DNA of 64,000 nucleotides. Origin: a virus. The translations under genes and the position numbers were made by a program. Positions 16,732 to 40,591 of the stretch are shown in pieces. Numbering within the stretch: the first letter of the stretch is position 1; each line of letters opens with the position of its first letter. Location of the stretch: the IMG/VR virus record IMGVR_UViG_3300007513_000013, positions 54,472 to 118,471 of that record; one strand, given 5' to 3'. The notes below the pieces were generated by a model. The model saw only the letters and a list, made by a program, of their open reading frames with translations. It ran no database searches and was not told the origin of the DNA.

Positions 16732-19700
16732 TGGGTGGTGCTGCAGGACACATGGCACATCCTTTTGATTTGCCCGAAGTAAATACTGGAAATGATTTAA
16801 TCAATTTCTTTCAAACAGCGGTAGATCATTTACAAACAAATGCCGGTAGTGTTAAAATTGATGGAGTTAACGTAAGCTTTAAATTAATTGACGGACCTCA
16901 AGGCAAAGAATTTGCAGTTGATCGTGGAAGTACAAAACCAATTGACATTGAAGGGATAACAATAAGCAGAGTTAACGAAAGATTTCCAGAAGGTCATGGA
17001 ATGCGGCCAGCTATTACAACTCTATTGACAATCCTCAATGAGGCTCTCCCAAATATAAAACGACAATTGCAGCAATTGGGAATGTGGTATGACCCCACGA
17101 AATTCTTAAACACAGAATATGTCTTAGGACAAACAAACGTAACTGTATATGATAAAAACTTTTTAGCTATTCACGGCTTAAATCAGTTTTATGAGAAAAC
17201 CAATCAAAGAACCGGCGTTTCTAGACCGGGAACTAAAAGACCCTTAAACAATAAAGCTCCGAGTACAGAAGTAGAATATAGCGACGATCTAATGGAGTCT
17301 TTAGTTGCAGAAATTGGTAAAGTAGCTGGTAGGTATGGATTTGAAGTTTATGGATCCGTGCCAACAGAATCCATGAAGCCTGTTAATTTTTCTAGTACCT
17401 TAAGTACCCCTTTTACTGTTAATTATGGATATGAAGAAAATGGTGAGGTGTTCTCAGACACAAAAACCCTTCAAGAATGGTTGGCAGAGGCCAATAATCC
17501 CCGAGGGGCAACTGTCAATTTAGCCGATGGTAGAAAACAAGGGGCCATGAGCAAATTAGTCTACACAGAAATTTTAAATGGCACTTTAATAACTGAATTG
17601 TTGCAAATTGGTGAAGATTTTTGGCAGAACATGCAGGACGGGGGAAATATAGAAGGAACGGAAGTAGAATTAGCTGTAGATGGCGCAATATTCTACCATG
17701 CAACCAGATTGTTGGGAAATGATGTTTTAGAGACACTCACAAGCCCCATGGGAGACGTTCTAAGCCACGAAGGAGTGGTTATTAGGGGGTTATCCTCTGT
17801 GCCGGTTAAAATCACCGGAGAATTCATCGTACAAGGCCTACAAACGGCCTTTAGAGAGCAGAAAGAACTTTATGAGCAGAATATACCGTTTGCAGGCGAA
17901 AAGTCCCATATAGCCTTCATTCCGGGCGGATTTAAGCCTCCGCACAAAGGGCATCTAGAAATGGTTAAATATTACTACAATAAAGTGGGCCCAAATGGGA
18001 CAGTTGTTGTTTTAATGGGCGGTGGTGGAAAACAGCCGAGAACAATCAATGGAAAACCCATAACTTTGCAAGATTCTATGAATATATGGGAAACATATTT
18101 AAGAAATGATCCTGGAATTGATTGGCCCTCTGATAGAGTGGAGTTTCAGAGTGTTGAAGGTGTTGGTCCAATTGCGCCTATTATAGATTATATAAAAGAG
18201 AAAGCAGATCCAGAAACTGAAGTTATTCATTTGGGCGCTGGTGCGAAAGATGCTAATAGATGGAAAATGATGCTGGATAATTCCAAAAACAACCCGAGAG
18301 GAGTTGAATTACATATTGATCCTGCTCCAAATATGGTAGATTCAGAAGGAAATCCATTGAGCGCAACTGTTATGCGAAGATCTGTTGAAGAAAAAGATCT
18401 AGACACCTTTAAGAGATTTATTCCCGACACCAGCCTTCATACAGCTGAAGATTTGTTTGTTATGCTGAGCGGTGCTTTATTAACAGAAGGAAAGGAGGAT
18501 GACCCACTTCCTGTGGGTATTTTTCTGCGGTTAATTGAAGAAGAGGTAGATAAAGAAATATTAAATGAAAATTTATGGGACACTTTAGATAATTGGAGGC
18601 GCAGATACGGCCGTAAAATCCTTAATCCAATCGAAACAACGGCAGGAGTGTTGGGCGATCTTATCGGTAAACAAGAGGCCGGAAAAAAAGCAGAACACCT
18701 TACAGATAAATTAGCAGACACTATTACATCTCCATTTGATCCTTTAATTAATCCAGTGGTTGATTATCTATCTGGTCGGAGAGACATTGATCCGCCAAAA
18801 GGGCCGGGCGGAAGTACACCAGTTATAGTACCTCCATATGACCCTAGGACAGAAAAAATAAATCAACTTTTAAAACAAAGAGAAGACTGGAGTAAAAAAC
18901 TGCATTTAAAATATTTACAAGACAGAGAAGAAGCTTATTATCGAAATCCGGAAAGATGGGAAGGGAAATTACCCGAAGAAGGATATTGGGGACCTCATGA
19001 GAATAGCCCGACAAGTAAAACGACTTACGATGCGTGGTTAAAATCTGGCGCGTACAGAAAACATTTTCCAAACTTAACACGAATTAGCACTGATGACCCA
19101 AGATTAAAATGGTATTGGAAAGATATGGATCCCTCCAAATTAGAACAAGTATATGGTACTCGCGATGGACGTTGGCACGACCCACTAAAAGAGTCAAACA
19201 CACTTTCACCAGATATGTTTCTAGAATTAATTGAAGAAGCTATAGCCAGCACAGATTTATTTGGTGGCAGGAAAGACGATGCCAATATGTATCCTCAATG
19301 GAATGCTCAAGCTGCTGATGATGCAATATATGATAATGACGATACAATACCGGTAACTGAAGCTAGTGGAATGGCAGCCGGTGATGTTTCTGGTGGCGGT
19401 GTAGGAAATAGGCCTCCGGGAGCTTGTGATGATGAATACTTAATTCGTGAAGAAGACAGTGAAACACCTGAAGTTAAAAAACCTGCTGAAGTTAAAAAAC
19501 CTGCTGAAGTTAAAAAACCTGCTGAAGTTAAAAAACCTGCTGAAGTTAAAAAACCTGCTGAAGTGGCTAGCTGGCAGGATGACCCGAGCTATGAATCATC
19601 TCTCCCTCCTCAAAACAAGCAAGAAGAAACCCACGAAGACAAAATAAAGGGTATGAAGTTTTATAATAACTTAAAAGACGATACATTTAAAGAGGCTTTT

Positions 19701-20690
19701 AACAAGGCCTATAAAACATATGGCTGGAAAGGGGCTTATGTCTGGAAGAAGACATATGAAAACTTCATTAAGAAGGGAGACGGTCCGGATGATGCAGCAT
19801 ACTTTGCCAGCGATGCAGTTACTTCTTTGAAGTGGCCCGGGAAACAAAAAATCACCAAGCAGAGGGCGCGCCCGTACCACCCGCTAGAGCCCGGCTCATA
19901 CACAAAGATTTATACCGGTAAAAACCGGCCATCAGATGAAGAGATAAAAAGAGATCCAGTGAAGCCGCCGCCAAAAGGTTCACAAAAATACTCCTATACA
20001 GATCAGGGCAAACAAATAGCTAATAATGTAAGAAACGACCTGATCAAAGCATATACACAGCCATGGTCCCCGTTTGCGCAGCAAGGAATCAGAAAACATG
20101 GAAAGAAAAAGTATTTTAACGAGATCCTTCCGAAAATTACAGAAAAACTACGTGGCATCAGCTTTAATATTGAAAAAGGTAAAAAGACCGTTAGTGATCA
20201 TGCCGCGGCATATTACGCGCCCGGGACGAATAGTGTCACTCTCCCCGGACGCTTTGATGCAAGCACAGAAGAACTTGAAACACTGCTGGTACATGAAATA
20301 GGGCACTCTTTGGCGCCAGGATTTCTTACTAAACTTGGCCTAGGTGTTATTGATCCGGGTGATAACAAGCAAGATTTATTAGCGTTGATAGACAAGGAAA
20401 AAGTGCACAAAGGGTTCAGGCCCGGGCAGAAGTCGATTATGCACCGGGTTGAGTATGGCAAAGATCCGCATGGTGCGAATCCCTCGGAGATACAAACCAA
20501 CTTAGCTCATTTAAAATATTACCTTATGAAAAAGGGCCACATGGGCAATGATGGGAAAGTAACCGGAAAAGTTATTGACAAAATTCGCCAAGGAAAAATA
20601 AAAGTACCCGGTAATAATTTTGTAAAGAATATAAATTCCAAAATGGATTCGCGCGAACTAGCTCAGCGTATGAATAATATTTGGAATTAA
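16731..20690 (+). CDS. Multidomain protein: ligase-like domain, HxGH nucleotidyltransferase and HExxH protease
   Basis: The 1319-aa protein starts GHMAHPFDLPEV. At 42-45 it has K-I-D-G, the lysine motif I of the ATP-dependent ligase/capping nucleotidyltransferase superfamily, with ERFPEGHG further on. Residues about 392-550 form a cytidylyltransferase-type domain: GGFKPPHKGH (HxGH 405-408) and SATVMRR (544-550), as in NMN/phosphopantetheine adenylyltransferases. LLTEG (583-587) and EILNEN (609-614) mark LxE helices that separate the enzyme part from a linker region. Five AEVKKP repeats (914-943) follow. A metalloprotease motif HEIGH lies at 1188-1192. Nicked-RNA repair or NAD-related chemistry are both possible for the first part, and neither is proven. 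ATG overlaps the upstream TAA. Confidence 0.7.
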   Translation: MGGAAGHMAHPFDLPEVNTGNDLINFFQTAVDHLQTNAGSVKIDGVNVSFKLIDGPQGKEFAVDRGSTKPIDIEGITISRVNERFPEGHGMRPAITTLLTILNEALPNIKRQLQQLGMWYDPTKFLNTEYVLGQTNVTVYDKNFLAIHGLNQFYEKTNQRTGVSRPGTKRPLNNKAPSTEVEYSDDLMESLVAEIGKVAGRYGFEVYGSVPTESMKPVNFSSTLSTPFTVNYGYEENGEVFSDTKTLQEWLAEANNPRGATVNLADGRKQGAMSKLVYTEILNGTLITELLQIGEDFWQNMQDGGNIEGTEVELAVDGAIFYHATRLLGNDVLETLTSPMGDVLSHEGVVIRGLSSVPVKITGEFIVQGLQTAFREQKELYEQNIPFAGEKSHIAFIPGGFKPPHKGHLEMVKYYYNKVGPNGTVVVLMGGGGKQPRTINGKPITLQDSMNIWETYLRNDPGIDWPSDRVEFQSVEGVGPIAPIIDYIKEKADPETEVIHLGAGAKDANRWKMMLDNSKNNPRGVELHIDPAPNMVDSEGNPLSATVMRRSVEEKDLDTFKRFIPDTSLHTAEDLFVMLSGALLTEGKEDDPLPVGIFLRLIEEEVDKEILNENLWDTLDNWRRRYGRKILNPIETTAGVLGDLIGKQEAGKKAEHLTDKLADTITSPFDPLINPVVDYLSGRRDIDPPKGPGGSTPVIVPPYDPRTEKINQLLKQREDWSKKLHLKYLQDREEAYYRNPERWEGKLPEEGYWGPHENSPTSKTTYDAWLKSGAYRKHFPNLTRISTDDPRLKWYWKDMDPSKLEQVYGTRDGRWHDPLKESNTLSPDMFLELIEEAIASTDLFGGRKDDANMYPQWNAQAADDAIYDNDDTIPVTEASGMAAGDVSGGGVGNRPPGACDDEYLIREEDSETPEVKKPAEVKKPAEVKKPAEVKKPAEVKKPAEVASWQDDPSYESSLPPQNKQEETHEDKIKGMKFYNNLKDDTFKEAFNKAYKTYGWKGAYVWKKTYENFIKKGDGPDDAAYFASDAVTSLKWPGKQKITKQRARPYHPLEPGSYTKIYTGKNRPSDEEIKRDPVKPPPKGSQKYSYTDQGKQIANNVRNDLIKAYTQPWSPFAQQGIRKHGKKKYFNEILPKITEKLRGISFNIEKGKKTVSDHAAAYYAPGTNSVTLPGRFDASTEELETLLVHEIGHSLAPGFLTKLGLGVIDPGDNKQDLLALIDKEKVHKGFRPGQKSIMHRVEYGKDPHGANPSEIQTNLAHLKYYLMKKGHMGNDGKVTGKVIDKIRQGKIKVPGNNFVKNINSKMDSRELAQRMNNIWN
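19470..19559 (+). repeat. Five tandem 18-bp repeats encoding EVKKPA
   Basis: Five identical copies of GAAGTTAAAAAACCTGCT run head to tail, then a partial sixth. Perfect identity suggests recent slippage expansion. The product is a charged Pro/Lys linker between domains. Confidence 0.9.
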
Positions 20691-20711
20691 GTTAAATGAG
20701 AAATTTATACA

Positions 20712-20718
20712 CTATTTA
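20712..20718 (+). promoter_or_regulatory. CTATTTA element (candidate phage promoter)
   Basis: ACACTATTTA lies 23 nt before ATG 20742, in the first non-overlapping gap after the large virion-protein run. Confidence 0.4.
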
Positions 20719-20741
20719 CTGTGTAAAGTGGAGCAAAAATA

Positions 20742-21467
20742 ATGCAAACTGAAAGAGAAGATTTTATAAATGAAATTTTGGAAGAAAGGAAGCTTAGAGA
20801 GGTGGTTCGAGCCGGTATTAAAACCATACTGGAGAGGAAAAAGAAAGTCGTTGACGAGTCGATGCAGCTTAAATCAATCATACAGCATATAATTAAAGAA
20901 GCAAAAGCTAAAAACATTGCTGTACATGATTCCACCGGGATGAATAGATTAGAAGATCTATTTAGCAACACTTCTTTTTTAGATACTCTGGAAAAAGCTT
21001 ATATGTCGTTAACTTCGGCTCCAGAACAAAGAAAGTCATTTCGTGCACATCTTTTGAATGCAGTAGAGGCGTTACTGCAAACAGATGATCTAAACAGATC
21101 TGCAGATGCAGAGGAGGCTGGTAGTAGTAGCCTTATGACTAGACCGGTGAAACCTATAGCAGAAGATATTGATGTTGATATCGATGATGACTTTAGTGAT
21201 GATGTTGAAGATGTTAACAAATCTGATGAAGAAAAGGAAGAAGAAGACTTTAGTATTCCCGGGATGGATGAAACAGGCAGAAATATCGCCTTACAAGCTT
21301 TTAATGGTCTTAAAGATTTAATTAAAAACGCTCTAAAGCCAATTGTTAATTCTGAAGATAAAGAATTGTTTATGACATATTTAATTAAAAATTTAAATTT
21401 ATATTTAGATACGTATGAAGAATCGATTACTGGTGACTTTAAAAATCAAGAACCAATGATGCCATAA
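20742..21467 (+). CDS. Hypothetical helical acidic protein, 241 aa
   Basis: The N-terminal half is strongly helical and charged (QTEREDFINEILEERKLREV). The centre (about 140-180) is an Asp/Glu-rich low-complexity linker, and the C-terminal 60 residues form a hydrophobic helical domain (NIALQAFNGLKDLIKNALKPI). The composition would fit a scaffold/core or small assembly protein, but no family is recognised. ATG 20742 follows GTGGAG at about 9 nt. It has its own CTATTTA element upstream and is followed by a 54-bp gap. Confidence 0.6.
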   Translation: MQTEREDFINEILEERKLREVVRAGIKTILERKKKVVDESMQLKSIIQHIIKEAKAKNIAVHDSTGMNRLEDLFSNTSFLDTLEKAYMSLTSAPEQRKSFRAHLLNAVEALLQTDDLNRSADAEEAGSSSLMTRPVKPIAEDIDVDIDDDFSDDVEDVNKSDEEKEEEDFSIPGMDETGRNIALQAFNGLKDLIKNALKPIVNSEDKELFMTYLIKNLNLYLDTYEESITGDFKNQEPMMP

Positions 21468-21521
21468 AATAAAACCAACCGTCCGACCAAGGGTATCATA
21501 AATTTTTATAAAAATTAAACT

Positions 21522-21878
21522 ATGAGCTGGAAAAAAAAGAAAAAATATGGAAAGAACGAGCACTATAGTCTTGTAAAAAAGCTGAAAGACGAAGAAAAGA
21601 TTAATGAAAGCTTTGAGTTAATGCTAAATGGATTATCACTGGAAGAAATCATTGGACTCAAGTTAGAATTAGCATCTAAATTCTTCGGAGGGAAATCTTA
21701 TGGCATGCCAATATGGTACTCGATGAGAGAAATTGTACAAGATGCTGTACTAAAATATGCTCTTTCAGCTTGTCGTACCAAGAAAGAGGCTGCTAGATTG
21801 TTGGGCTTAGATCCTAATAATTTCAGAAAATTAATAAAAAAATACGAAACTGAATCTTTTTTTGAAGAAAATACTTGA
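21522..21878 (+). CDS. Fis-type helix-turn-helix protein
   Basis: The 118-aa protein begins with a Lys run (SWKKKKKYGKNEH). It ends with a classical Fis/NtrC-type helix-turn-helix: ALSACRTKKEAARLLGLDPN at about 85-104, followed by FRKLIKKY. Such domains bind DNA as dimers; the upstream part (LSLEEIIGLKLELA) is helical and could dimerise. It is probably a phage transcription regulator or nucleoid-binding protein. Its last codons carry the -35 box of the tmRNA promoter. Confidence 0.75.
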   Translation: MSWKKKKKYGKNEHYSLVKKLKDEEKINESFELMLNGLSLEEIIGLKLELASKFFGGKSYGMPIWYSMREIVQDAVLKYALSACRTKKEAARLLGLDPNNFRKLIKKYETESFFEENT

Positions 21879-21903
21879 CAAAATTAATTATAATGTTTAC
21901 TAT
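21875..21903 (+). promoter_or_regulatory. sigma70 promoter of the tmRNA gene
   Basis: Consensus TTGACA (21875-21880), a 17-bp spacer and TACTAT (21898-21903) place initiation near 21910, just before the mature tmRNA end at 21917. Confidence 0.7.
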
Positions 21904-21906
21904 TTA
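21900..21906 (+). promoter_or_regulatory. CTATTTA element at the tmRNA promoter
   Basis: The recurrent heptamer overlaps the -10 box and ends 10 nt before the tmRNA 5' end, which is where a -10-like element would lie. Confidence 0.4.
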
Positions 21907-21916
21907 ACGTAATTAT

Positions 21917-22347
21917 GGGGGCGAAATGGTTTCGACAGAGTAATGAGATTGTTTTGTGCAAGACTGTGTAAGTATCACAGTATAAATACTTAAACTTTAT
22001 AAATGCCAACGACAACGTTGAATTTGAATACGCACTAGCTGCGTAATCTGAAGTTACTAACGCTTTATTAACGAAGTTAGATCGGGAATACATACGATAT
22101 CGTGTATTAGTTTTCAAGGGTTCAAATAACCTAGCTCAGCTGTGGCTTAACAAGTCTTAAAAGGTCAGAAGGGCGAAAGGGTTATATAGTTACTATATAA
22201 TTTTGGTAACCAGCACCATAAGTTGGTAAAATGGATTCCCCGATGTTTCATCGGGTGGTTGGTACTTAGGTGGTTATTGTACCTATTCTTGTGAATGACA
22301 AAATAATTAATTTATTTTGGACCCGGGTTCGACTCCCGGCGCCTCCA
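21917..22347 (+). ncRNA. ssrA: Phage-encoded transfer-messenger RNA (tmRNA)
   Basis: This is a one-piece tmRNA. The 5' end GGGGGCGAAATGGTTTCGAC and the 3' end CCGGGTTCGACTCCCGG plus CGCCTCC-A form the tRNA-like domain. The 7-bp acceptor stem closes with the G3-U70 wobble pair that alanyl-tRNA synthetase requires. The T-loop TTCGACT is intact. The tag frame (22005-22046) reads A-N-D-N-V-E-F-E-Y-A-L-A-A then TAA; its LAA end is the ClpXP-type degron. CCA is not encoded. tmRNA with SmpB frees stalled ribosomes and tags the product for proteolysis. No smpB gene is in the window, so host SmpB is presumably used. The gene lies between a Fis-like regulator and an FtsZ-like gene. Confidence 0.95.
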
Positions 22348-22404
22348 CTCATATAGTAAGTTTACATCAGAGATAACTACTTATATACAAGGAGAATTAA
22401 ATTC

Positions 22405-23496
22405 ATGAATGAAAACGAAAATGAGAACGAAGGTGGTTGGGACTTACCAGAAGCTCCCCCAGATGATTTTGATTTTGATTTTGTAGAAGCCTATGATGAT
22501 GAGCCTTCTGTAGGTGAAAAAATGCTAGCTGAAAATACAGCACCTAGCGCAATTAATTGTGCTTTTGTTGGTATTGGCGGTGGCGGTGGTAAAATAGCCA
22601 AAGCCTTTTTGGACTTAGGTTTTAATAAGACATTCCTTGTTAACACTACTGAAAAAGATCAGCCAATTGGACTAGAACCAGAAAATTTTCTTTTATTGCC
22701 TGGTGCAGATGGTGTTGGAAAAGATGTTAAGCTTGGAAAACAAATACTGCAAGATAACAGCGCTATGGTAGAAGATGCCCTCAGAACCAGATTCGGCAAA
22801 GTAGATTGGATTTTTGTTTGTGCTGGTGCTGGTGGAGGCACTGGAAGTGCTAGTTACATTTTACACAAAGCAATGACTCGATATTTATCTTCTATAGAAG
22901 CTTCAGGAAAGGTGGTTTATATAGCTAGCAAACCAACCGCGCAAGAGTTGTTAAATCCTACAATTAAATCTAATTGCGCAATGTTCTTGAAAGATATCAG
23001 CAAGCACACTCATATTATTATTGACAATGAAAAGCAATTGCAATTGCTGAGAGGTAAGGTGGGCATGTTGAATATGTATCCAGCGGCTAATAAGAACTTT
23101 GCAAAACTATTGGCACAGGTTCTTAAACTAGCTCATGAGCCTTCACCAATTCAAGTTTTTGATTCTAAAGATCTAGAAAGATGTTTACAAACAAACGGCC
23201 GTATACTTTTAGGAAGTACTGTTGTAAGAGATCCTTCCAAAACAGATTTAGGGGCAACTGTATTTCAGGGCTGTTTAAAATCTTCCCCGTGTCCTCCACC
23301 AGCTAGCAAATCTAAGACTGGTGCACTATTGTTGGTAACCACTCCAGAAATGGCAGATGATCCTTCTATAAGTAATCGATTAGAGGCAGCCTTTTCATAT
23401 GTTGGTGGTCGTTCTGAGACATTATTTTCTGGTGTTTATGTGAGAGAAAGACTACCAGGATTAATTGCCTTAACTTTATTGGGCGGAATGAGTTAA
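22405..23496 (+). CDS. FtsZ/tubulin-like GTPase
   Basis: The 363-aa protein has the tubulin/FtsZ nucleotide-binding signatures. G-loop VGIGGGGGK is at 55-63, the FtsZ-like NTTEKD follows at about 78, and the tubulin signature GAGGGTGS is at 141-148. The T7-loop equivalent VFDSKDL has Asp253 and Asp256 where FtsZ has its catalytic acids. The first 50 residues form an acidic low-complexity tail (Asn/Glu/Asp/Pro), and the FtsZ C-terminal peptide is absent. It could polymerise, as PhuZ and TubZ do, to position phage DNA or act on host division; either is inference. Start ATG 22405 follows AAGGAG. Confidence 0.85.
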   Translation: MNENENENEGGWDLPEAPPDDFDFDFVEAYDDEPSVGEKMLAENTAPSAINCAFVGIGGGGGKIAKAFLDLGFNKTFLVNTTEKDQPIGLEPENFLLLPGADGVGKDVKLGKQILQDNSAMVEDALRTRFGKVDWIFVCAGAGGGTGSASYILHKAMTRYLSSIEASGKVVYIASKPTAQELLNPTIKSNCAMFLKDISKHTHIIIDNEKQLQLLRGKVGMLNMYPAANKNFAKLLAQVLKLAHEPSPIQVFDSKDLERCLQTNGRILLGSTVVRDPSKTDLGATVFQGCLKSSPCPPPASKSKTGALLLVTTPEMADDPSISNRLEAAFSYVGGRSETLFSGVYVRERLPGLIALTLLGGMS

Positions 23497-23540
23497 AAAA
23501 TAGTTTAATTTCGTTTACAATATGGCTAGAGGTGGTAATA

Positions 23541-23777
23541 ATGGAAGAACAACAAACCAAAACATGGAAAACAGTTGGCACATATACTGATTATAATGAT
23601 GCAGCTGTTAAGAAGAACGAGTTGTGTGAATCTTATCAAGAGGTTAAAATAAAGCGCGGCGGAAAAGGTGGTTCTATATTTCGGGTCAAAGCCTGGAATC
23701 CCCCTCAAAAAGAAAACAAAAAGAAAGGTAAGAAAAATGTCAACAAGAAGGTTCGCAGTCGATCAGAAGGGCAATAA
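23541..23777 (+). CDS. Small basic hypothetical protein, 78 aa
   Basis: ATG 23541 follows AGAGGTGG; a GTG three codons earlier is less likely. The first 55 residues could form a small beta-alpha unit (WKTVGTYTDYNDAAVKKNEL...VKIKRG), and the last 25 are almost all Lys/Asn/Arg, suggesting nucleic-acid contact. Its 3' end overlaps the next gene by 41 bp in another frame. Confidence 0.6.
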   Translation: MEEQQTKTWKTVGTYTDYNDAAVKKNELCESYQEVKIKRGGKGGSIFRVKAWNPPQKENKKKGKKNVNKKVRSRSEGQ

Positions 23778-23955
23778 AGTTTATGTTGGAAGTACTGTAA
23801 GATATAAGGATGACACGCTTTTAATCGAAAATATTCAAGATCTTTCTTGGAATAAAATTCAATATCTTACACTTTCAGACCGTAAAAATAAAAATAAAAA
23901 AATCGATTTTGTTCCCTCATCAGAAGTGACTGCCAGTTATAATTCTAGAAACTAA
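23737..23955 (+). CDS. Small beta-rich hypothetical protein, 72 aa
   Basis: ATG 23737 follows AAGGT and gives MSTRRFAVDQKGNKVYVGST, where the pattern KGNKVYVGSTVRYKDDTLLI suggests a small SH3/KOW-like beta barrel. It ends 8 bp before the deformylase gene. An upstream in-frame extension exists but lies inside the previous gene. Confidence 0.6.
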   Translation: MSTRRFAVDQKGNKVYVGSTVRYKDDTLLIENIQDLSWNKIQYLTLSDRKNKNKKIDFVPSSEVTASYNSRN

Positions 23956-23963
23956 TTAGCTTT

Positions 23964-24392
23964 ATGAAAAGTATTGTAAAAGATGTTTTATATTTGCAGC
24001 AAGCATGCGAGAAAATTGATTCAGAAAAAGAGGCTAAAGAAATCGCAGATGAGCTGTTTGAAATATTAAATAAAAATAAAAATGGTGTTGGTCTCGCAGC
24101 AAACCAAATTGGAATAAACAAAGCTGTTTGTGTTGTAAATGTCTGGCGCCCTCTTTGGTTTATGAATCCTAGTTTTATATCTGCCGGTAGTGAAAAAGTC
24201 CATTTTAATGAAGGGTGTTTGTCATTTCCGGACTCTATTATAACTACAGAGAGGTACAGGCACATTTCCGTAACGGCCGATAATCACGAAAAACAACTTT
24301 ATTTTGGACCATGGAATATGTTAGAATGTGTATGTGTTCAACATGAAATATGCCACTTAAATGGTGAAACAATGTTTGATTATAAAATATGA
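23964..24392 (+). CDS. def: Peptide deformylase
   Basis: The 142-aa enzyme has all three deformylase motifs: GVGLAANQIG (41-50), EGCLS (Cys85 metal ligand) and QHEICH (H127, E128, H131). It removes the formyl group from nascent N-terminal methionine in the cytoplasm. It is short because the C-terminal helix of bacterial PDFs is missing, as in other marine phage PDFs. Phage PDFs have been linked to fast turnover of photosystem proteins in cyanophages, but here no photosystem gene is seen. Its neighbours (tmRNA, PhoH) suggest a wider translation-quality role. The start follows the previous stop by 8 bp. Confidence 0.92.
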   Translation: MKSIVKDVLYLQQACEKIDSEKEAKEIADELFEILNKNKNGVGLAANQIGINKAVCVVNVWRPLWFMNPSFISAGSEKVHFNEGCLSFPDSIITTERYRHISVTADNHEKQLYFGPWNMLECVCVQHEICHLNGETMFDYKI

Positions 24393-24399
24393 GGCATAA

Positions 24400-25461
24400 A
24401 TGAAAAATGTATTGATTATTGGTACCGGTACTATTGGCGAACCTCTGATAGGCTTGTTTGCTGATTTTAAAAAGAAATTAGGTGTAAATGTGTTTTTTCA
24501 CAAACGTACACCCTTGGTAGATGAAATTGCAAAAGTTAATAGCTTGATTGCTCGCGGCGCAAATTTAGTTGTTGATCCAAAAAGAGTAGAGGAGTTTCAA
24601 GCTTTAGGGCATGAACCGGTTTTAAACTATGAGGCTGCATTAAAACTATGTGATATTATTATTGATTGTACTCCCGCGGGAAATGCAGCCAAAAAAGAAC
24701 ACTATTTACCCCTTTCAGAAAAATACAAAAGTAAATGTTTTATAGCTCAAGGAAGTGAGAAAGGTTTCGGCATGCCCTACGCATATGGAATTAATGATGA
24801 TGCACTTCTTAGGGAAAAGCCACAATTTGTGCAGGTAGTTAGTTGCAACACTCATAATATTGCCTCTTTGATTAAAACAATATGCCCTACCATAAGAGAT
24901 CTTCATTGCGGCGATTTTACATGTATTCGTAGAGCAAATGATATAAGCCAAGAAGGAGGCTTTATAGCCTCTCCAGTCGTCGGGAATCACAGTAAGAGGT
25001 CTTTTGGCACTCATCATGCAAAAGATGCCTATGATTTGTTTGCAACGATGTATGAGCATCCAAATCTTTTCTCCAGCGCGCTCAAAACGAACACTCAATA
25101 TATGCACACCATTCGTTTCAACATACAAATCAGAAAGTATGCTACAGAAAGAGATATATTTGATAAATTTAAAAGCAATAAGTTTATTGCACTCACACAC
25201 AAAACTTTAGCTAATAGAGTTTTTTCCTTTGGGAGGGATCATGGATATTATGGAAGAATTTTTAATCAAACTGTTGTCGTGGAACCGACCATTTCTGTTT
25301 CTCGCACTAATGGCACTACACAGATTGCAGGATTTTGTTTTACACCTCAAGATGGAAATTCTTTATTAAGCAGCGTGGCAGCTGCCATGTATAAGATTCA
25401 CGGAGACAAATATAAAGAATATATGAATTTATTTGACGACTATTTATTCAAGAGGATATAA
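24400..25461 (+). CDS. Archaeal-type (type II) glyceraldehyde-3-phosphate dehydrogenase homologue
   Basis: The 353-aa protein starts with a Rossmann motif (GTGTIGEPL). It has the type II GAPDH landmarks in order: DIIIDCTPAGN (about 86-96), the catalytic SCNT with Cys149, a GTHHAKD histidine pair (H205/H206) and matching length. Type II GAPDH interconverts glyceraldehyde-3-phosphate and 1,3-bisphosphoglycerate with NAD(P). It is typical of archaea and uncommon in bacteria, and I know of no well-described phage case. It could redirect host carbon to reducing power during infection, or act on another phospho-aldehyde; the substrate is not proven. It lies 7 bp after the deformylase and 2 bp before a small gene. 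Confidence 0.8.
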   Translation: MKNVLIIGTGTIGEPLIGLFADFKKKLGVNVFFHKRTPLVDEIAKVNSLIARGANLVVDPKRVEEFQALGHEPVLNYEAALKLCDIIIDCTPAGNAAKKEHYLPLSEKYKSKCFIAQGSEKGFGMPYAYGINDDALLREKPQFVQVVSCNTHNIASLIKTICPTIRDLHCGDFTCIRRANDISQEGGFIASPVVGNHSKRSFGTHHAKDAYDLFATMYEHPNLFSSALKTNTQYMHTIRFNIQIRKYATERDIFDKFKSNKFIALTHKTLANRVFSFGRDHGYYGRIFNQTVVVEPTISVSRTNGTTQIAGFCFTPQDGNSLLSSVAAAMYKIHGDKYKEYMNLFDDYLFKRI

Positions 25462-25463
25462 GT

Positions 25464-25793
25464 GTGGTCAATGTTATTAGATATTTAGATTATGCATGCA
25501 CACCAAACAATATTACAATAGAAGCCAGATATCCGGCCACATCTCGATATTTAGAAGTTGAGCTAAAAGTTGATGGAAAAATTGCTTTACATGGTCAATA
25601 TACAATATCGCTTCCAACCAAAAGAGACATTATTGATGAACGCATAAAAACTTTTTGCGGTGGAATAGGAATGTTTACAGAGGATGAGATTCAAGATTAT
25701 GTAATGGCGGATAGAATAATGGCAGCTTTGTATACCAAAAGGCACTTAAAAGAGGTGCGCACAAAAAGCGGCACGTTAATTTGGCGATTTTGA
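25464..25793 (+). CDS. Hypothetical protein, 109 aa
   Basis: GTG 25464 follows AGAGGATATAA. The product looks like a small soluble alpha/beta protein (beta-rich first half with RYLEVELKVDGKIALHGQYT, helical second half). No known motif is visible. It is 2 bp from the GAPDH gene, and its end overlaps the end of the convergent - strand protease gene by 18 bp. Confidence 0.6.
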   Translation: MVNVIRYLDYACTPNNITIEARYPATSRYLEVELKVDGKIALHGQYTISLPTKRDIIDERIKTFCGGIGMFTEDEIQDYVMADRIMAALYTKRHLKEVRTKSGTLIWRF

Positions 25794-26624
25794 TTTCTTT
25801 TTCTTGTTCTTGTTAACGAAGATGTTTTCCAAATCTAATGAGGACATGTGCTTTTTGTAAAGTTCGTATTTTTCTATATTGTATTTAATAAAGTGCTTTG
25901 TATGTTTATATGGAACACCTAGAGAGAGATGGTGAAAACGCACAAAAACACTATGTACAACTCCTATCAAGTCTCCTCTATAATTAAGAATCATAGAACC
26001 AGAACTACCTGGGGCTACCGGCAAAGAAAATAACGCAACTTTTCCTCCTGGTGCTAATCCACTATATCTGCCCTCTAAAATTGGTATCATGTTTTTTGCA
26101 AATATCCCCATGGGCGCCGCAACGTTATATACTTTATCTCCAACTTCTGGTGCCTTTGATGCAACATCTACCGGCTCAATATCGCTCATATCATATACAA
26201 ACAACAAGCAGATGTCCGTTTCTTCGTCATAAGTCAATGATCTGGCGTAATAAATATTACCAGAAACGTCTGTCATCTTATATTCAACAGATATCTTAAT
26301 TGCGGCTTGATTTAACTTCATCATCATTCTTAAGAAAGGCGGGATACTATCAGCGCAGACATGTGCAGCACTAACTGCATATGAACCATATTCATTTTTT
26401 CCAACTACAAAAGCACTGGCAGTGCTTCTGTTCGTTGGCATTTTTTGTGAATTACAAACTCCTTTCTCTTCGTCGCAAGAGTTAACTCTTATTTCTAGAG
26501 ACTTTTCAACATGTATAAAACTCTCTATTGGAAGGAAATTTGAAGATTTGTTTTGGTTGCCATGGGCGCATGATTGCAAGAGAAAAATAGATAGAAATAA
26601 AAATAATACTTTTTTTAAAAACAT
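25776..26624 (-). CDS. Secreted trypsin-like serine protease lipoprotein
   Basis: This is the only convincing - strand gene. The 282-aa product starts MFLKKVLFLFLSIFLLQSC: a signal peptide with lipobox and lipid Cys19. The trypsin-fold triad is visible as SAAHVC (His88), DEETDICLL (Asp137) and PGSSGSM (Ser208). It should be an envelope-anchored, periplasmic or surface serine protease. ATG 26624 has GAGGG upstream; a TTG further up would give a longer start. It is divergent from the PhoH gene and convergent with the preceding gene, suggesting independent control or late acquisition. Targets are unknown; blocking receptors or competing phages is a guess. Confidence 0.85.
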   Translation of the reverse strand: MFLKKVLFLFLSIFLLQSCAHGNQNKSSNFLPIESFIHVEKSLEIRVNSCDEEKGVCNSQKMPTNRSTASAFVVGKNEYGSYAVSAAHVCADSIPPFLRMMMKLNQAAIKISVEYKMTDVSGNIYYARSLTYDEETDICLLFVYDMSDIEPVDVASKAPEVGDKVYNVAAPMGIFAKNMIPILEGRYSGLAPGGKVALFSLPVAPGSSGSMILNYRGDLIGVVHSVFVRFHHLSLGVPYKHTKHFIKYNIEKYELYKKHMSSLDLENIFVNKNKKKKSKSPN

Positions 26625-26700
26625 ATATGGTGCCCTCAACAATAACTAGATAAAACTAATTTAAAAACGTGTGTTCTTTTTATTTTTATGTTTTCACTGC

Positions 26701-26707
26701 CTATTTA
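26701..26707 (+). promoter_or_regulatory. CTATTTA element (candidate phage promoter)
   Basis: CCTATTTACAATAAGG stands 12 nt before the PhoH ATG. It also contains TACAAT, a plausible sigma70 -10. The closeness to the start implies a very short leader if used. Confidence 0.4.
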
Positions 26708-26719
26708 CAATAAGGTATA

Positions 26720-28042
26720 ATGGCTAAAAAAACTTATATTTTAGATACTAGTGTTTATTTGACAGATCACAATTCTATATTTTCATATGGCATTAATGAT
26801 ATCGTGATTCCTTTTAAGGTGTTAGAAGAGGTAGATAAGCACAAGAAAAGACAAGACACTGTTGGTTCAAATGCACGACAGATTATCCGTGCACTGGACT
26901 CTTTTCGTGAAAAAGGTAGCCTCTATAAAGGTGTGCGAATTGGCAAGGGAAAAGGACTGATATCTGTTAAAAAAAGCAAATCAGAAACTCTACCAGAAGA
27001 TCTAGAACCTCATATCGCAGATAATGAAATAATTGCAGTTGCACTAAACGAAAATAAAAAAAATTTAAAACGAAAGACGATCCTAGTTTCAAGGGATGTT
27101 AACATGAGGGTAAAGTGTGATGCTTTAGGTCTTTTAACAGAAGATTATGTGGTAAATCAAGTTGTCAAAGATAGCGATCACTTGTATATGGGGTTTAAAA
27201 GCCATTTAGTGGATGAAGAAATAATTGATCAATTTTACTCTGGAGAAGAAATCTATCTAGACAAGGAAGATATTAAATTACAACCAAACCAGTATCTGAT
27301 GCTTATTTCAAGCTCAAACCAAAAGAAAACGGCGTTAGCTAGATTTTATAGTTATTCTAAACCATTAAAGAGAATCAATGGGGAACATAAAAAAGGAATT
27401 TGGGGCGTAAAGCCAAGAAATAAAGAACAAAGTTTTGCTTTGGACCTGTTGATGGATCCTTCTGTACCAATTGTTACTTTAATCGGAAAAGCTGGTAGTG
27501 GTAAAACTTTGTTGGCGATAGCAGCCGGTTTAGCGCAAGTTATGGAAGACAAAAAAGAATCTAACTATAGAAGATTGGTAATCTCTAGACCAATACAGCC
27601 CATGGGAAAAGACATTGGTTATCTTCCCGGCTCAATGGAAGAAAAAATGGCACCATGGTTGGCTCCCATACAAGATAATTTACAAAATTTAATGGGCAAC
27701 GATAAAGAGACATTAAAAATGTATACCGATAACGGCACTATAGAAATCGAAGCTCTAACTTATATAAGAGGTCGTTCCATTTCAAATGCATATATTATTA
27801 TAGACGAAGCACAAAATTTAACAGCACATGAATTAAAAACAATTATTACGAGAGTTGGCGAAAACACAAAAGTTATCTTTACAGGAGATGTAGAGCAAAT
27901 CGACAATGCTTATGTTGATGAGACATCGAACGGTTTGGCATATGCGATAGAGAAGTTTAAAGGCTATGATTTATCAGGCCACATTACCTTAGTAAGAGGT
28001 GAGCGTTCAAAAGTTGCAACACTTGCAGCAAAAATTCTTTAA
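26720..28042 (+). CDS. phoH: PIN-PhoH protein (PhoH2-like RNase/helicase)
   Basis: The 440-aa protein has a PIN RNase domain first (LDTSVYL with Asp8, then further acidic residues to about 145), then a PhoH ATPase domain. Walker A is GKAGSGKT (256-263), Walker B is YIIIDEAQ, and the sensor region is KVIFTGDVEQID. Bacterial PhoH2 proteins of this layout unwind and cut RNA. phoH is frequent in marine phages, though usually without the PIN domain in T4-like ones. It starts with ATG 26720 and is transcribed away from the lipoprotein protease gene. Phage role is unproven. Confidence 0.9.
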   Translation: MAKKTYILDTSVYLTDHNSIFSYGINDIVIPFKVLEEVDKHKKRQDTVGSNARQIIRALDSFREKGSLYKGVRIGKGKGLISVKKSKSETLPEDLEPHIADNEIIAVALNENKKNLKRKTILVSRDVNMRVKCDALGLLTEDYVVNQVVKDSDHLYMGFKSHLVDEEIIDQFYSGEEIYLDKEDIKLQPNQYLMLISSSNQKKTALARFYSYSKPLKRINGEHKKGIWGVKPRNKEQSFALDLLMDPSVPIVTLIGKAGSGKTLLAIAAGLAQVMEDKKESNYRRLVISRPIQPMGKDIGYLPGSMEEKMAPWLAPIQDNLQNLMGNDKETLKMYTDNGTIEIEALTYIRGRSISNAYIIIDEAQNLTAHELKTIITRVGENTKVIFTGDVEQIDNAYVDETSNGLAYAIEKFKGYDLSGHITLVRGERSKVATLAAKIL

Positions 28043-30342: not shown

Positions 30343-31611
30343 GTGAGCGATAAAAAGATCACCATTTTGACATTGAGCGATCATCCGCTTTCTCCTTCTG
30401 GAGTTGGCACTCAAACGAGAAACATGATTGAGGCAATGCTTGAGACTGGTAAATATAAATTTATAAGCCTAGGCGGGGCGATGAAACACGTCGATTATGA
30501 ACCTAAAAAGGTAGATCCATGGGGAGAAGATTGGGTTATTTTTCCAATCGACGGGTATGGAAATCAAGAAACAATTCGTTCCCTAATCAGAGTTAATAAA
30601 ATAGATATTCTTTGGTTTATGACAGATCCCAGATTTTATGGCTGGCTCTGGTTAATTGAAAATGAAATTAGGCCGCTGATTCCAATGGTCTATTATCACG
30701 TGTGGGACAATTACCCTTATCCAACTTACAATAAACCATTTTATGACTCAAATGACGTTATCGCGACAATATCTAAAGTAACTGACGATATTGTTAAGAC
30801 TGTATCACCAGATGTTGAATCTGTTTATATTCCACACGCAGTGGATGCTAATATTTTTAAAAAACATGATGGTCCCGAAATGGAAAAGTTCAAAACAGAG
30901 GTGTTTAAGGACAACTCTCTAGAGGGTAAATTTATATTCCTGTACAATGGCCGAAATGCAAGAAGAAAACAGACTGGCTCTATGATCTTTTGGTTTAAAG
31001 AGTTTTTAGACAGAGTGGGTCACGACAAAGCTGTTTTTATTATGCATACAGATGTTAAAGACCCGGTTGGCCAAGATCTGGAATATATCATAAGACACTT
31101 AAAATTAACAAATGGAGAAGTTGTATTTTCAACACAGAAATATCCACCGAATGTTTTAGCTAAAATCTATAATATTGCAGATTGTACTCTTTGTTTGTCT
31201 GATGCCGAAGGTTTTGGATTGACCTCTTTGGAGTCTTTAGCATGCGGAACTCCTGTTATTTCAACGTTGACAGGCGGTTTGCAGGAACAAGTAACAGACG
31301 GCAAAGACACTTTTGGAGTGGGAATTGAGCCTAGTACAAAATCTATTATCGGCTCTCAGGATATTCCATGGATTTATGAGGATAGGGTATCGGAAGAAGA
31401 TGTTATAAATGCAATGTTAAAGTTGTACAATATGTCGCAAGAAGAAAGAGACGAACTTGGGGCAAAAGGTACAGCACATGTATTAAAAAATTACAGCTTT
31501 GAAAGGTACGTTGAACAGTGGGATGAATTATTCCAGCGCGTTCATAGTGAAATGGGCTCGTGGGAAAATAGAAAAAATTACAAGTCATGGACTTTAAAAG
31601 AGGTAGTATGA
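30343..31611 (+). CDS. GT4-family glycosyltransferase
   Basis: The 422-aa protein has an N-terminal GT-B half with SPSGVGTQTRNM (16-27) and a C-terminal half with the nucleotide-sugar site DAEGFGLTSLESLACGTPVI (E-x7-E motif). It begins at GTG 30343 after GAGGTAAAC and opens the glycan block. The acceptor and donor are not predictable. Its TGA overlaps the next ATG by 4 bp. Confidence 0.88.
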   Translation: MSDKKITILTLSDHPLSPSGVGTQTRNMIEAMLETGKYKFISLGGAMKHVDYEPKKVDPWGEDWVIFPIDGYGNQETIRSLIRVNKIDILWFMTDPRFYGWLWLIENEIRPLIPMVYYHVWDNYPYPTYNKPFYDSNDVIATISKVTDDIVKTVSPDVESVYIPHAVDANIFKKHDGPEMEKFKTEVFKDNSLEGKFIFLYNGRNARRKQTGSMIFWFKEFLDRVGHDKAVFIMHTDVKDPVGQDLEYIIRHLKLTNGEVVFSTQKYPPNVLAKIYNIADCTLCLSDAEGFGLTSLESLACGTPVISTLTGGLQEQVTDGKDTFGVGIEPSTKSIIGSQDIPWIYEDRVSEEDVINAMLKLYNMSQEERDELGAKGTAHVLKNYSFERYVEQWDELFQRVHSEMGSWENRKNYKSWTLKEVV

Positions 31612-32873
31612 GAAAAAAAGTTTTAGTTAGAGCACCAGCATTGAGCAGAACAGGATATGGTGAGCATGCTCGTTTTGTTTTACGTTCCTTAAGAAAGCAT
31701 GAAGATAAGTTTGACATTTTTTTAGACAACACCAACTGGGGCCAATCCGGCTGGATTTTTCGAGACAATGAAGAAAGACGATGGATAGATACAATTATTG
31801 CAAAAACAATGTTTCACGTGAATAATGATGGCGGCCCAATGGATGTATCTGTACAAGTTACAATACCAAACGAATGGCAACCTTTGGCCCCGGTAAATAT
31901 TGGCGTAACTGCTGGTATTGAAACAACACAGGTCGCACCGCAGTGGGTTGAGCAGTCTTTTGTTGTAGATAAGATTATTACCACTTCCAATCATTCTAAA
32001 CAAGTTTATGAAAACACAACATATGAAGCACAACACAAAGAAACGATGGCGGTTATCAAAGAATTTAGATGTGAGCGGCCAATTGAAGTTGTCCATTATC
32101 CCGTAAAAGATATTGAAAAAGCAGAAATTGATTGTGAACTTGAAACAGACTTTAATTTTTTAGTAGTTGCTCAGTGGGGCCCTAGAAAGAATATTGAAAA
32201 CACAGTTAGGTGGTTTATAGAAGAATTTGTCGACAATTCTAATGTTGGAATGGTGTTAAAGTTGTTTTATAGAAATGGATCTATTATAGATCGGGTCAAT
32301 TTAGAAGAAAATGTAAAAAATCTACTTAACGAATATCCGCAAAGAAAATGCAAAATTTATTTATTACATGGAGATATGAGTGAAGAAGAAATGACCGGCC
32401 TTTATACTCATCCAAAAATTAAGACATTAGTATCTTTGACGCATGGTGAAGGATATGGTCTTCCTTTGTTTGAGGCGGCTTATAACGCACTACCAGTCTT
32501 AGCTCCAGATTGGAGTGGGCATGTCGACTTTTTGTTTAAACCAACAAAAGATAAAAAAGGCAAAATAAAGCAAAAAGCACATTTTGCAAAAGTGGATTAT
32601 GATATCGGCCCGGTTTCCCAAGAAGTATTGTGGCCCGGAGTTCTAGAAAATTATATGATGTGGTGTTACCCAAAGCAGGGTAGTTATAAGATGAAATTAC
32701 GTGAAATCCACAAGGATCACGGCAGGTTCAAATCCCAGGCAAAAAAGCTGCAAAAATGGATTCGAAAGGAATTTTCTGAAGACAAACAATATGAAAAAAT
32801 GGCTAATGCCATTTTGTCTGTTATAGAGAAGGGCGAAACTGCAGAGGAAAAAGCCGTCGTTAGTTATGAATAA
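31608..32873 (+). CDS. GT4-like glycosyltransferase
   Basis: I chose ATG 31608, which overlaps the previous stop by 4 bp. The 421-aa protein starts KKVLVRAPALSRTGYGEHAR and carries a C-terminal donor site HGEGYGLPLFEAAYNALPVL. Both features fit the GT-B fold of GT4 enzymes. It is a second, diverged member next to the first, suggesting successive sugar additions. The end overlaps the next gene by 8 bp. Confidence 0.85.
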   Translation: MRKKVLVRAPALSRTGYGEHARFVLRSLRKHEDKFDIFLDNTNWGQSGWIFRDNEERRWIDTIIAKTMFHVNNDGGPMDVSVQVTIPNEWQPLAPVNIGVTAGIETTQVAPQWVEQSFVVDKIITTSNHSKQVYENTTYEAQHKETMAVIKEFRCERPIEVVHYPVKDIEKAEIDCELETDFNFLVVAQWGPRKNIENTVRWFIEEFVDNSNVGMVLKLFYRNGSIIDRVNLEENVKNLLNEYPQRKCKIYLLHGDMSEEEMTGLYTHPKIKTLVSLTHGEGYGLPLFEAAYNALPVLAPDWSGHVDFLFKPTKDKKGKIKQKAHFAKVDYDIGPVSQEVLWPGVLENYMMWCYPKQGSYKMKLREIHKDHGRFKSQAKKLQKWIRKEFSEDKQYEKMANAILSVIEKGETAEEKAVVSYE

Positions 32874-34470
32874 GATTCTATACATCTCAGATTTTTTTTT
32901 GGACACAATACAAGGCGGCGGAGAACTAGTAGACGATTGTTTAATAAATAATTTAATTGAGCGAGGCTATGATGTTCAAAGAGTGCATTGTGGAAATGCC
33001 ACTCCGGAGTTTATAGATAATAATTCTGCCGCATTTTTTATTGTATCTAATTTTGTCACTCTGTCAGAAGAGTCAAAAGAGTCTTTGGGCGCGCAGTCAT
33101 ATGTGATTTACGAACACGATCACAAATACATAATCGAAAGAAACCCTTCTGCATACAAAAATTTTGAAGTACCATCACATAGATTGGCTAATCTTTCCTT
33201 TTATCGAAACGCAAAAGCCGTCTTTTCTCAATCTAAATTACATTCTGAAGTTATAGGAAAAAATGTAAAGGGAGCAAATGTAATCAATTTAGGCTGCACT
33301 TTGTGGAGCGACGAACATTTGCGCGCCCTAGAAAATAACCTAGATACGCAAAAAGATGATAAGTTTGCTATTGTAAATTCAGAAAACCCTGTTAAAGGTA
33401 GGGATCCTGCAATTGCATATTGCAGAAATAAAAACGTTTCTTTTGATTTAATAGGCTCGAACGATTATAAAGAATTTATCGCACAGTTGGCCGCCAAAAA
33501 AGGCTTAGTTTTCTTTTCACAGGTCTTAGAGAGCTTTTGCCGACTAGTTGTTGAGGCCCGAGTATTGGACTGCACAATTACAACCAATAACTTAAATGGA
33601 TGTGCTTCTGAAGAGTGGTTTAAGAATTATAAAGGCAAGGAATTATTAAATTTTTTAAAGGAAAAGAAAAAGGAAGTCATCGATACAATTATTTCAGTAA
33701 TAAAAGGCGATCACCGTTCTAATAAAAAAGGCGACATCACAGTTATATTGAACTCTTATCGACGTCCATATAATTTAAACATGCAAGTTGAGGCAATAAA
33801 AAACCAAACCATACTTCCAAAAGAAACTTGGCTTTGGGTCAATTCCCATGAAGACAATAAGGGTTGGGACTATTCAAATCTTGGAATAGACAAAGTATTC
33901 AACAATGATCATAATTGGAAATTTTATGGCAGATTTGCTGCAGCCCTTCTGGCAGATACAGAATATGTTGCAGTGTTTGACGATGATACAATTCCGGGAA
34001 AAGAGTGGTTTGAAAACTGTTTAAAGACAATGGAAACCCACGAAGGAATATTAGGAAGCGCCGGTGTAATATTGAATGGCAAACATTACGTTCAGCATAA
34101 TAGGTGCGGCTGGCCCTCTCAAAATAAAGAGGCAACAGAAGTTGATTTAGTTGGTCATGCGTGGTTTTTTAAGCGCGATTGGCTTCAATATTTATGGAAA
34201 GAAAAACCAACAACATGGGACAATGGCGAGGATATACAATTTTCCTATTTAGCTCAGAAATATGGTGATATAAAAACCTACTGTCCACCTCACCCCTTAG
34301 AAAAGCCCGAATTACATGGTTCGATTTTAGGAAATGAGCTAGGCATAGACAATAAAGCAACTTCTACTGATTCTAGTATATCACACGAACGATTTTTTGC
34401 CGAAAGAGACGTCTGTGTACAAACAGCAATAAAAAATGGCTGGAAAACTGTTAATGGAGTTTCGCTGTGA
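32866..34470 (+). CDS. Two-domain glycosyltransferase (GT-B-like half plus GT2 half)
   Basis: The first 280 residues of this 534-aa protein look like a GT-B-type transferase (ISDFFLDTIQGGGELVDDCL start; SENPVKGRDPAI). The C-terminal half begins near residue 287 with a GT2-type nucleotide-binding strand (ITVILNSYRRPYNLNMQVEA). It has a metal-binding FDDD (about 371-374) and HAWFFKRDW, followed by GEDIQFSYL. Two transferase domains in one chain suggest it adds two sugars in turn. The stop overlaps the next gene's GTG. Confidence 0.8.
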   Translation: MNKILYISDFFLDTIQGGGELVDDCLINNLIERGYDVQRVHCGNATPEFIDNNSAAFFIVSNFVTLSEESKESLGAQSYVIYEHDHKYIIERNPSAYKNFEVPSHRLANLSFYRNAKAVFSQSKLHSEVIGKNVKGANVINLGCTLWSDEHLRALENNLDTQKDDKFAIVNSENPVKGRDPAIAYCRNKNVSFDLIGSNDYKEFIAQLAAKKGLVFFSQVLESFCRLVVEARVLDCTITTNNLNGCASEEWFKNYKGKELLNFLKEKKKEVIDTIISVIKGDHRSNKKGDITVILNSYRRPYNLNMQVEAIKNQTILPKETWLWVNSHEDNKGWDYSNLGIDKVFNNDHNWKFYGRFAAALLADTEYVAVFDDDTIPGKEWFENCLKTMETHEGILGSAGVILNGKHYVQHNRCGWPSQNKEATEVDLVGHAWFFKRDWLQYLWKEKPTTWDNGEDIQFSYLAQKYGDIKTYCPPHPLEKPELHGSILGNELGIDNKATSTDSSISHERFFAERDVCVQTAIKNGWKTVNGVSL

Positions 34471-35471
34471 TATTAATAAGTTTCGGAACCAGGCCGGAAT
34501 ATATTAAGCTTAAGCCGATTGTTGATATTTTTAAAAAAAAGAAACAACCCTACAAAATTTTATTCACTGGGCAACACACTAGTTTACTACCCGCAGAAGC
34601 TTCAGTTGAAATAGATTATAAGTTAAACATTAAAGATGGTTCAAATCGACTTGATTCAATCGTTGGCTCTGTCATGAATCAGTCCCATATATGGATTGAA
34701 CAGCTTACGCACGTAATGGTACAAGGAGACACGACTTCTGCTTTTGCGGTAGCATTGGCCGCTTTTCATAGAAAAGTCCCTGTAATACACCTTGAAGCCG
34801 GTCTCAGGACCTATGACAATAATAATCCATACCCAGAAGAATTCAACAGGCAGGCAATTTCTCGTTTGACCAGCATACACCTTTGCCCAACGGAAAATGA
34901 TGCAAATAATTTAAAAAGAGAAAACGCGCAAGGTGAAATACATGTTGTGGGAAATACTGTGTTGGACAATCTACAAAATTTGAAAGTTTCTTATAATAAT
35001 AAAATTTTAATAACAATGCACCGCAGAGAAAATCATGATAAAATAGAAGATTGGTTTTTGGCCTTTAACAACCTTGCGAAATCTTATTTAGAGTATGATT
35101 TTGAGTTTGTTGCTCATCCAAATCCAAACGTACAAAAGCATTTGCACCTATTGGACCATGTTAAGGTGGTGGATCCTATGGAGCATACTGACTTTGTTCG
35201 AGAAGTTGCACAATGCAAGTTTTTAATAACCGACTCTGGTGGGCTACAAGAAGAATCTTCTTTTTTGAGAAAAAGGAGCATTGTTTGCCGAAAAGCCACG
35301 GAAAGAACAGCTGGACTGGGGCATTTTTCAATTTTATGTTATAATCCAAACGAGTTATATGATATGATACCTAGGTACATAAATAATTTTAAAATCAGTA
35401 GTGCGATTAAGTGTCCTTATGGCGATGGCAATTCTGCTGAAAAGATATATAACATTCTAAAATCAAAATGA
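34467..35471 (+). CDS. wecB: UDP-N-acetylglucosamine 2-epimerase
   Basis: The 334-aa protein has family landmarks in order: GTRPEYIKLKP (7-17), HLEAGLRT, PTENDANNL, GNTVLDNL, HRRENHD and DSGGLQEESSF...TERTAGL. It converts UDP-GlcNAc to UDP-ManNAc in the cytoplasm, giving precursor for ManNAc-containing glycans. It is slightly shorter than bacterial WecB (about 370). The GTG start overlaps the previous TGA. Confidence 0.92.
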   Translation: MILISFGTRPEYIKLKPIVDIFKKKKQPYKILFTGQHTSLLPAEASVEIDYKLNIKDGSNRLDSIVGSVMNQSHIWIEQLTHVMVQGDTTSAFAVALAAFHRKVPVIHLEAGLRTYDNNNPYPEEFNRQAISRLTSIHLCPTENDANNLKRENAQGEIHVVGNTVLDNLQNLKVSYNNKILITMHRRENHDKIEDWFLAFNNLAKSYLEYDFEFVAHPNPNVQKHLHLLDHVKVVDPMEHTDFVREVAQCKFLITDSGGLQEESSFLRKRSIVCRKATERTAGLGHFSILCYNPNELYDMIPRYINNFKISSAIKCPYGDGNSAEKIYNILKSK

Positions 35472-39739: not shown

Positions 39740-39753
39740 AGGGGATATGAAAA

Positions 39754-40587: not shown

Positions 40588-40591
40588 TTTA

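Follow-up and report, generated by a model that had tools for sequence, protein, structure and literature searches.

The window, the whole 64,000-nucleotide stretch analyzed here, covers positions 54472 to 118471 of a 118,471-base IMG/VR virus record. It encodes a GTPase of the FtsZ/tubulin superfamily 54 nt downstream of a tmRNA gene. The features of the locus, numbered from the first base of the window, are as follows.

21522..21878, plus strand: 118-aa Fis-type helix-turn-helix (HTH) protein, a conserved neighbor in the window's gene arrangement (Pfam HTH_8, E = 4.8e-5; cluster c28)
21875..21903, plus strand: possible sigma-70 promoter before the tmRNA, TTGACA-17-TACTAT (consensus scan, 10/12)
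21917..22350, plus strand: one-piece tmRNA gene, ssrA (Rfam RF00023, 105.6 bits, full model length)
22005..22046, plus strand: tmRNA tag frame ANDNVEFEYALAA*, ending in ALAA (sequence; like tags in relatives by ARAGORN)
22389..22394, plus strand: Shine-Dalgarno AAGGAG, ribosome-binding site of the GTPase gene (sequence)
22405..23496, plus strand: FtsZ/tubulin-superfamily GTPase gene, 363 aa, ATG at 22405 to stop (open reading frame, profile and fold matches)
22405..22524, plus strand: disordered acidic N-terminal extension, codons 1-40 (pLDDT < 50 for most of residues 1-37)
22462..22500, plus strand: conserved short motif DDFDFDFVEAYDD, codons 20-32, within the disordered extension (family form D-[DE]-F-D-F-V-x-[AH]-Y; alignment)
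22564..22596, plus strand: T1 glycine loop, residues 54-64 (G56, G58, G59, G61, G62 and K63 invariant in 78/78)
22825..22848, plus strand: T4 tubulin signature loop GAGGGTGS, residues 141-148 (G143-S148 invariant in 78/78)
23158..23175, plus strand: T7 (synergy) loop FDSKDL, residues 252-257, with catalytic aspartates D253 and D256 (F252, D253, D256 and L257 invariant in 78/78)

An earlier note, made from the letters of the window, had placed a tmRNA beside the GTPase gene, and both the Rfam score and the presence of a tag frame agree with it. ARAGORN reported no tmRNA in the window, which we attribute to a miss by the program because Rfam finds the gene. Matches resembling the candidate promoter are common by chance (13 found versus 10.2 expected), and no terminator-like site was seen between the tmRNA and the GTPase gene.

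A distant branch of the tubulin superfamily

The GTPase matched the NCBIfam ftsZ profile (E = 6.5e-10; 38.8 bits against a cut-off of 295.2) and the Pfam Tubulin profile (E = 1.8e-7; 32.1 bits, just below the 33-bit cut-off), and a sequence search of the PDB aligned FtsZ chains to residues 54-274 (E = 2e-8). In an AlphaFold2 model built on the family alignment (mean pLDDT 88.6, pTM 0.85, with blocks of ~96 over most of residues 41-362), the GTPase domain and the C-terminal domain are both predicted to be complete. Foldseek and VIA-align superposed residues 47-363 on complete TubZ, CetZ and FtsZ structures. Fold matches over 267-309 residues gave Z scores of 32.6 for TubZ, 32.2 for CetZ2 and ~28 for FtsZ, the first two being a tie for the nearest solved fold; PhuZ chains were missing from the best 50 VIA-align matches, which reflects the length of that list and says nothing about likeness to PhuZ. 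Among predicted viral structures, the best matches were two uncultured-phage proteins named FtsZ or cell division protein (18-19% identity), followed at far weaker scores by tubulin/PhuZ-type proteins. The motifs G56-I-G-G-G-G-G62 and G141-A-G-G-G-T-G-S148 and the acids D253 and D256 read as the earlier note had described them, and these motif matches are not due to chance. Its identification of an FtsZ/tubulin-like GTPase is likewise borne out by the profile and full-length fold matches: judged by sequence, the protein is a clear yet distant member of the superfamily.

Across an alignment of 78 distinct family sequences, 64 positions were invariant, including residues of T1, T4 and T6, N229 in helix H7, and D253 and D256. 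The T7 loop aligns to that of FtsZ, CetZ, TubZ and PhuZ, and the family carries the feature set of the superfamily (T1 and T4 glycine loops, the T6 Asn and the T7 Asp pair). Segment 331-345 of the C-terminal domain is about as conserved as the nucleotide loops in the same 78 sequences. Pooled pairs gave a dN/dS for the core of 0.079/1.86, or ~0.04, a rough figure because dS is near saturation, and these comparisons indicate that the core is under strong purifying selection.

At its N terminus the protein carries 16 D/E against 1 K/R in 44 residues, and in both model and alignment the chain stops at the final strand of the C-terminal domain, with no C-terminal tail, linker or partner-binding peptide. 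The earlier note was thus right about an acidic N terminus and a missing tail; its phrase that the one stands in place of the other should be read with caution, and the extension is a separate feature with its own conserved motif. In relatives, the extension varies in length and is strongly acidic. The motif within it has a mean column entropy of 0.95 bits versus 2.51 and 2.27 for its flanks, and F26 is kept in 77 of 78 relatives. A DFDFV motif that is kept in a disordered arm while its flanks vary is likely to be a contact. A further reading, that the prohead protease removes an N-terminal propeptide at the conserved LPEN, which resembles an L-x-E site, is weakened by two observations: E43 gives way to D in 19/78 sequences and in a few to something else, and the model shows residues 41-50 as well ordered. 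In three of the gene arrangements described below (A, D and E), the protein often starts with M-[AGP]-S-[ST] (L008, L011, L024, L039, L075, L090 and others), and an internal in-frame ATG lies ~20-60 codons further on with its Shine-Dalgarno inside the open reading frame; two isoforms are possibly made there. The extension in those relatives evolves as coding DNA (pooled dN/dS ~0.31), and the window copy corresponds to the short form only.

A scan of IMG/VR with the window protein found 48 loci (58-100% identity), and a scan with a 33-member alignment found at least 162 loci with confirmed relatives, 80 of them listed. Among 50,697 phage records, the sole match was a weak one to gp138 of Bacillus phage G; the family was absent from all cultured phage records searched, and we found no description of it in the literature searched. 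A genome-collection scan (591 candidate stretches) yielded, among the matches listed, one confirmed relative (L122; 55% identity), on a 15-kb contig of a Flavobacteriaceae metagenome-assembled genome. This relative, on what may be a phage contig binned with the bacterium, hints weakly at a host and was the only one among the matches listed that could speak for a cellular origin of the family, which we set aside.

The earlier note had called for a phylogeny. Our tree sampled the family together with FtsZ, archaeal FtsZ, one CetZ-type protein, TubZ-type plasmid proteins, phage G and PhuZ, with FtsZl1 and FtsZl2 left out. Within that sample, the phage family with its intact T7 loop formed one clade (100/99) that did not group with non-polymerizing FtsZ-like proteins; FtsZ formed another (100/98) and PhuZ another (100/100). 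A plasmid TubZ from Lysinibacillus stood beside the phage family (94/85) on a long branch, a link of which we are unsure, and the deep branching order is untrustworthy because the distances are great. Descent from a host FtsZ is unsupported by the tree. The family is a real and widespread phage tubulin clade, known here from uncultured T4-like phages only.

CetZ proteins are shape proteins known from archaea, and phage tubulins are known mainly from nucleus-shell phages, where they center the shell, and from plasmid-like elements. Each of these systems resembles the phage family in part. FtsZ provides the best sequence matches in the PDB and NCBIfam and has the same motifs and two-domain fold, but the phage protein scores far under the FtsZ cut-off, lies outside the FtsZ clade and has no C-terminal linker or peptide. 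CetZ, close in fold (25% identity over 291 residues), differs in that the one CetZ-type protein sampled fell outside the phage clade. TubZ/RepX, the partition tubulins of plasmids and phages, have a like fold and like T6 and T7 loops but only 18% identity to the phage protein, near whose gene neither a TubR-like conserved neighbor nor iterons were found. Gp138 of phage G is, as here, FtsZ-like and encoded by a very large phage, but it has 24% identity (E = 0.02) and groups with plasmid TubZ-like proteins. PhuZ is likewise a phage-encoded tubulin-superfamily GTPase with the T4 signature and T7 aspartates; its family (phrog_4733), however, matches the window protein only at E = 0.003 and forms its own clade, and the family described here differs in having an N-terminal acidic arm and no C-terminal tail. 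PhuZ occurs in 66% of chimallin phages and is therefore not universal among them (PMC10299810), and it moves capsids and the phage nucleus (PMC10299810; PMC13282480).

Carrier phages and gene neighborhoods

A gp23-type major capsid protein was found in 11 of 13 large carrier records, and chimallin in none of the 13 (possibly fragments), although a phiKZ positive control matched. Since these T4-like carriers have no chimallin, the GTPase is not part of a nucleus-forming system, in contrast to PhuZ, whose carriers (Chimalliviridae) form a nucleus. Each of the 13 records has one clear tubulin-family gene, and one has a marginal second match. The window's record encodes a phage DNA polymerase, a DnaB-like helicase, ribonucleotide reductase and GroEL, and the window itself a gp55-like late sigma factor and a baseplate wedge protein. 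Gp23 was not found in this 118-kb fragment; the T4 order of portal, protease, capsid and adaptor genes is seen in a record with the same gene arrangement (G006), where the tubulin gene lies far away. The earlier note's view of the phage as T4-like is supported by these genes, and its suggestion that the tubulin has a role different from that in nucleus-forming phages fits the missing chimallin.

The gene occurs in several arrangements among the 78 loci. In arrangement A (25/78), it lies between gp23 and the head-tail adaptor, and in B (5/78), terminase and portal genes are upstream and the prohead protease downstream. Arrangement C, that of the window (14/78), runs from the Fis-type HTH gene through the tmRNA and the GTPase to a peptide deformylase or NAD-binding protein and PhoH; D (19/78) has the tmRNA, the GTPase, a sigma-region-4 gene on the opposite strand and PhoH. 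The remaining loci belong to arrangements E, F and G or are unassigned. No conserved partner protein common to all arrangements was found. On well-supported branches of the family tree, the gene must have changed place at least six times to account for arrangement A. A head-gene role, which adjacency to gp23 might suggest, is weakened by a control anchored on the major capsid protein, in which only 6 of 44 loci with enough downstream DNA carried the GTPase and the gp23-adaptor interval usually held other accessory genes, such as a sulfotransferase. When 12 capsid-related records were searched whole, the gene was present in one, which shows that phages of this kind can do without it. The interval is thus an accessory slot, and late-region cargo or late expression may explain the position of the gene there, rather than a proven head function. 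The DNA preceding the gene showed no consistent T4 late-promoter box in arrangements A, B and G. The window GTPase is linked to the tmRNA and not to structural genes.

Three minor features of these loci may be added. Between gp23 and the head-tail adaptor, the T4-like phages of L135-L212 have a variable interval that often holds a sulfotransferase-like gene. One locus has a tandem pair of gp23-type capsid genes encoding 632 and 629 aa (L182:6001-9882). In one locus of arrangement E, the gene 3' of the GTPase matches Zeta toxin-type kinases (L017:11075-11974; Pfam PF06414, E = 1.7e-8).

A putative filament in phages without a nucleus

In the tubulin superfamily, the GTPase site spans two subunits: one binds the nucleotide, and the adjoining one supplies the T7 acids that act on it. 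We know of no use for the T7 aspartates in a monomer. Given that these acids are invariant in the family and that purifying selection is strong, polymerization is the best explanation, and the sequences strongly imply that the phage GTPase polymerizes head-to-tail. We propose that the protein binds GTP and assembles into dynamic protofilaments, with GTP hydrolyzed between neighboring subunits, where the T7 loop of one would reach into the nucleotide pocket of the other. In cells lytically infected by large T4-like phages without a nucleus, the filament would most likely be a scaffold or track that serves phage replication or virion assembly. It would then work like PhuZ but with other cargo, for which replication sites, capsids or membrane are candidates. 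The C-terminal tails of FtsZ and PhuZ play an adaptor role; here, the N-terminal DFDFV motif on its flexible acidic arm might serve as the adaptor. Both the cargo and the adaptor role are weakly inferred. As a whole, a polymerizing phage cytoskeleton in T4-like lytic growth, with the N-terminal motif as adaptor, is a credible proposal that falls somewhat short of probable. The wider proposal, of a separate phage tubulin clade that builds a dynamic cytoskeleton without a nucleus, uses an N-terminal adaptor arm and has its expression tied to the phage tmRNA, is offered a little more tentatively.

The GTPase might instead be directed against host division, by co-assembling with or capping host FtsZ or by taking its partners, thereby blocking septation while the infected cell keeps growing. 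Phages commonly aim small proteins at FtsZ, as do lambda Kil (PMC3961180), T5.008 (PMC10714956) and P1 Icd (PMC11897509), and the phage GTPase lacks a C-terminal tail, the route of FtsZ to the membrane, as might also be true of a dominant-negative copy. We nevertheless consider this unlikely, in that the family forms a clade apart from all sampled FtsZ, has ~15-19% identity to solved FtsZ structures and scores far under the ftsZ profile cut-off, and a decoy needs no intact catalytic residues under strong selection.

The recurrent association with tmRNA invites a different explanation, in which the tmRNA and the GTPase work as a single unit, for example through shared transcription and regulation, with ribosome rescue and filament formation starting together. 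Phage tmRNA is rare (402 of 18,146 genomes, given as 2.3%), and only 2.5% of one-piece phage tmRNA genes are marine (PMC9004378); a tmRNA was found in 11/13 carrier records versus 2/11 related records without the GTPase gene (Fisher p = 0.003, or 0.02 for records of at least 110 kb, values that are too generous because the records are related). In arrangements C, D and E, the distance from the tmRNA to the GTPase gene downstream on the same strand is commonly 1-70 nt, though the other neighbors differ, and several gaps are so short that there is no room for a separate promoter or terminator. However, the GTPase stands apart from the tmRNA in arrangements A, B and G, and a common position is no proof of a common task. 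We regard a single functional unit as quite improbable. The literature searched held no phage tmRNA coupled to a tubulin-type gene.

A TubZ-like partition motor, segregating phage genomes in a plasmid-like or pseudolysogenic state, would suit the closest folds (TubZ and CetZ), the TubZ-like T6 (DNE) and T7 (FDSxD/E) loops and the plasmid TubZ that adjoins the clade on its long branch. It is very unlikely, however: no TubR-like partner is conserved across arrangements, the Fis-type HTH neighbor being found mainly in arrangement C; no iteron array was found at 19000-27500; and the gene sets of the carriers are T4-like and presumably virulent. Just as doubtful is a GTP-binding but non-polymerizing regulator or virion component, for which some FtsZ-like families that may lack filament parts (FtsZl1; PMC2875224) and the place of the gene in the head cluster of several genomes could be cited, given that the T7 aspartates and segment 331-345 are about as conserved as the nucleotide loops and both domains are complete in the model.

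That this family branches separately from phage tubulins described so far suggests that a skeleton in the infected cell may be built even by phages that lack a "phage nucleus". If so, tubulin-based organization of infected cells would not be limited to nucleus-forming phages, and the wide spread and strong conservation of the clade among T4-like phages would mean that tubulin-type filaments are also at work in the phage body plan that has been studied best. This raises the question of what a nucleus-free phage moves with tubulin. The prokaryotic tubulin family would also gain a deep branch with its adaptor at the opposite end, together with a recurrent link of a tubulin-type gene to a phage tmRNA.

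Elsewhere in the genome of the window's phage, the GroEL chaperonin is near full length (L251:2571-4142; phrog_5725, E = 4e-143). Tandem 18-bp repeats at 19450-19582 of the window code for PAEVKK within a 1319-aa protein that has a cytidylyltransferase-like region, and positions 30343-44431 hold a block of glycosyltransferases, a Nol-like carbamoyltransferase, NAD synthetase, UDP-glucose dehydrogenase and nucleotide-sugar epimerases.
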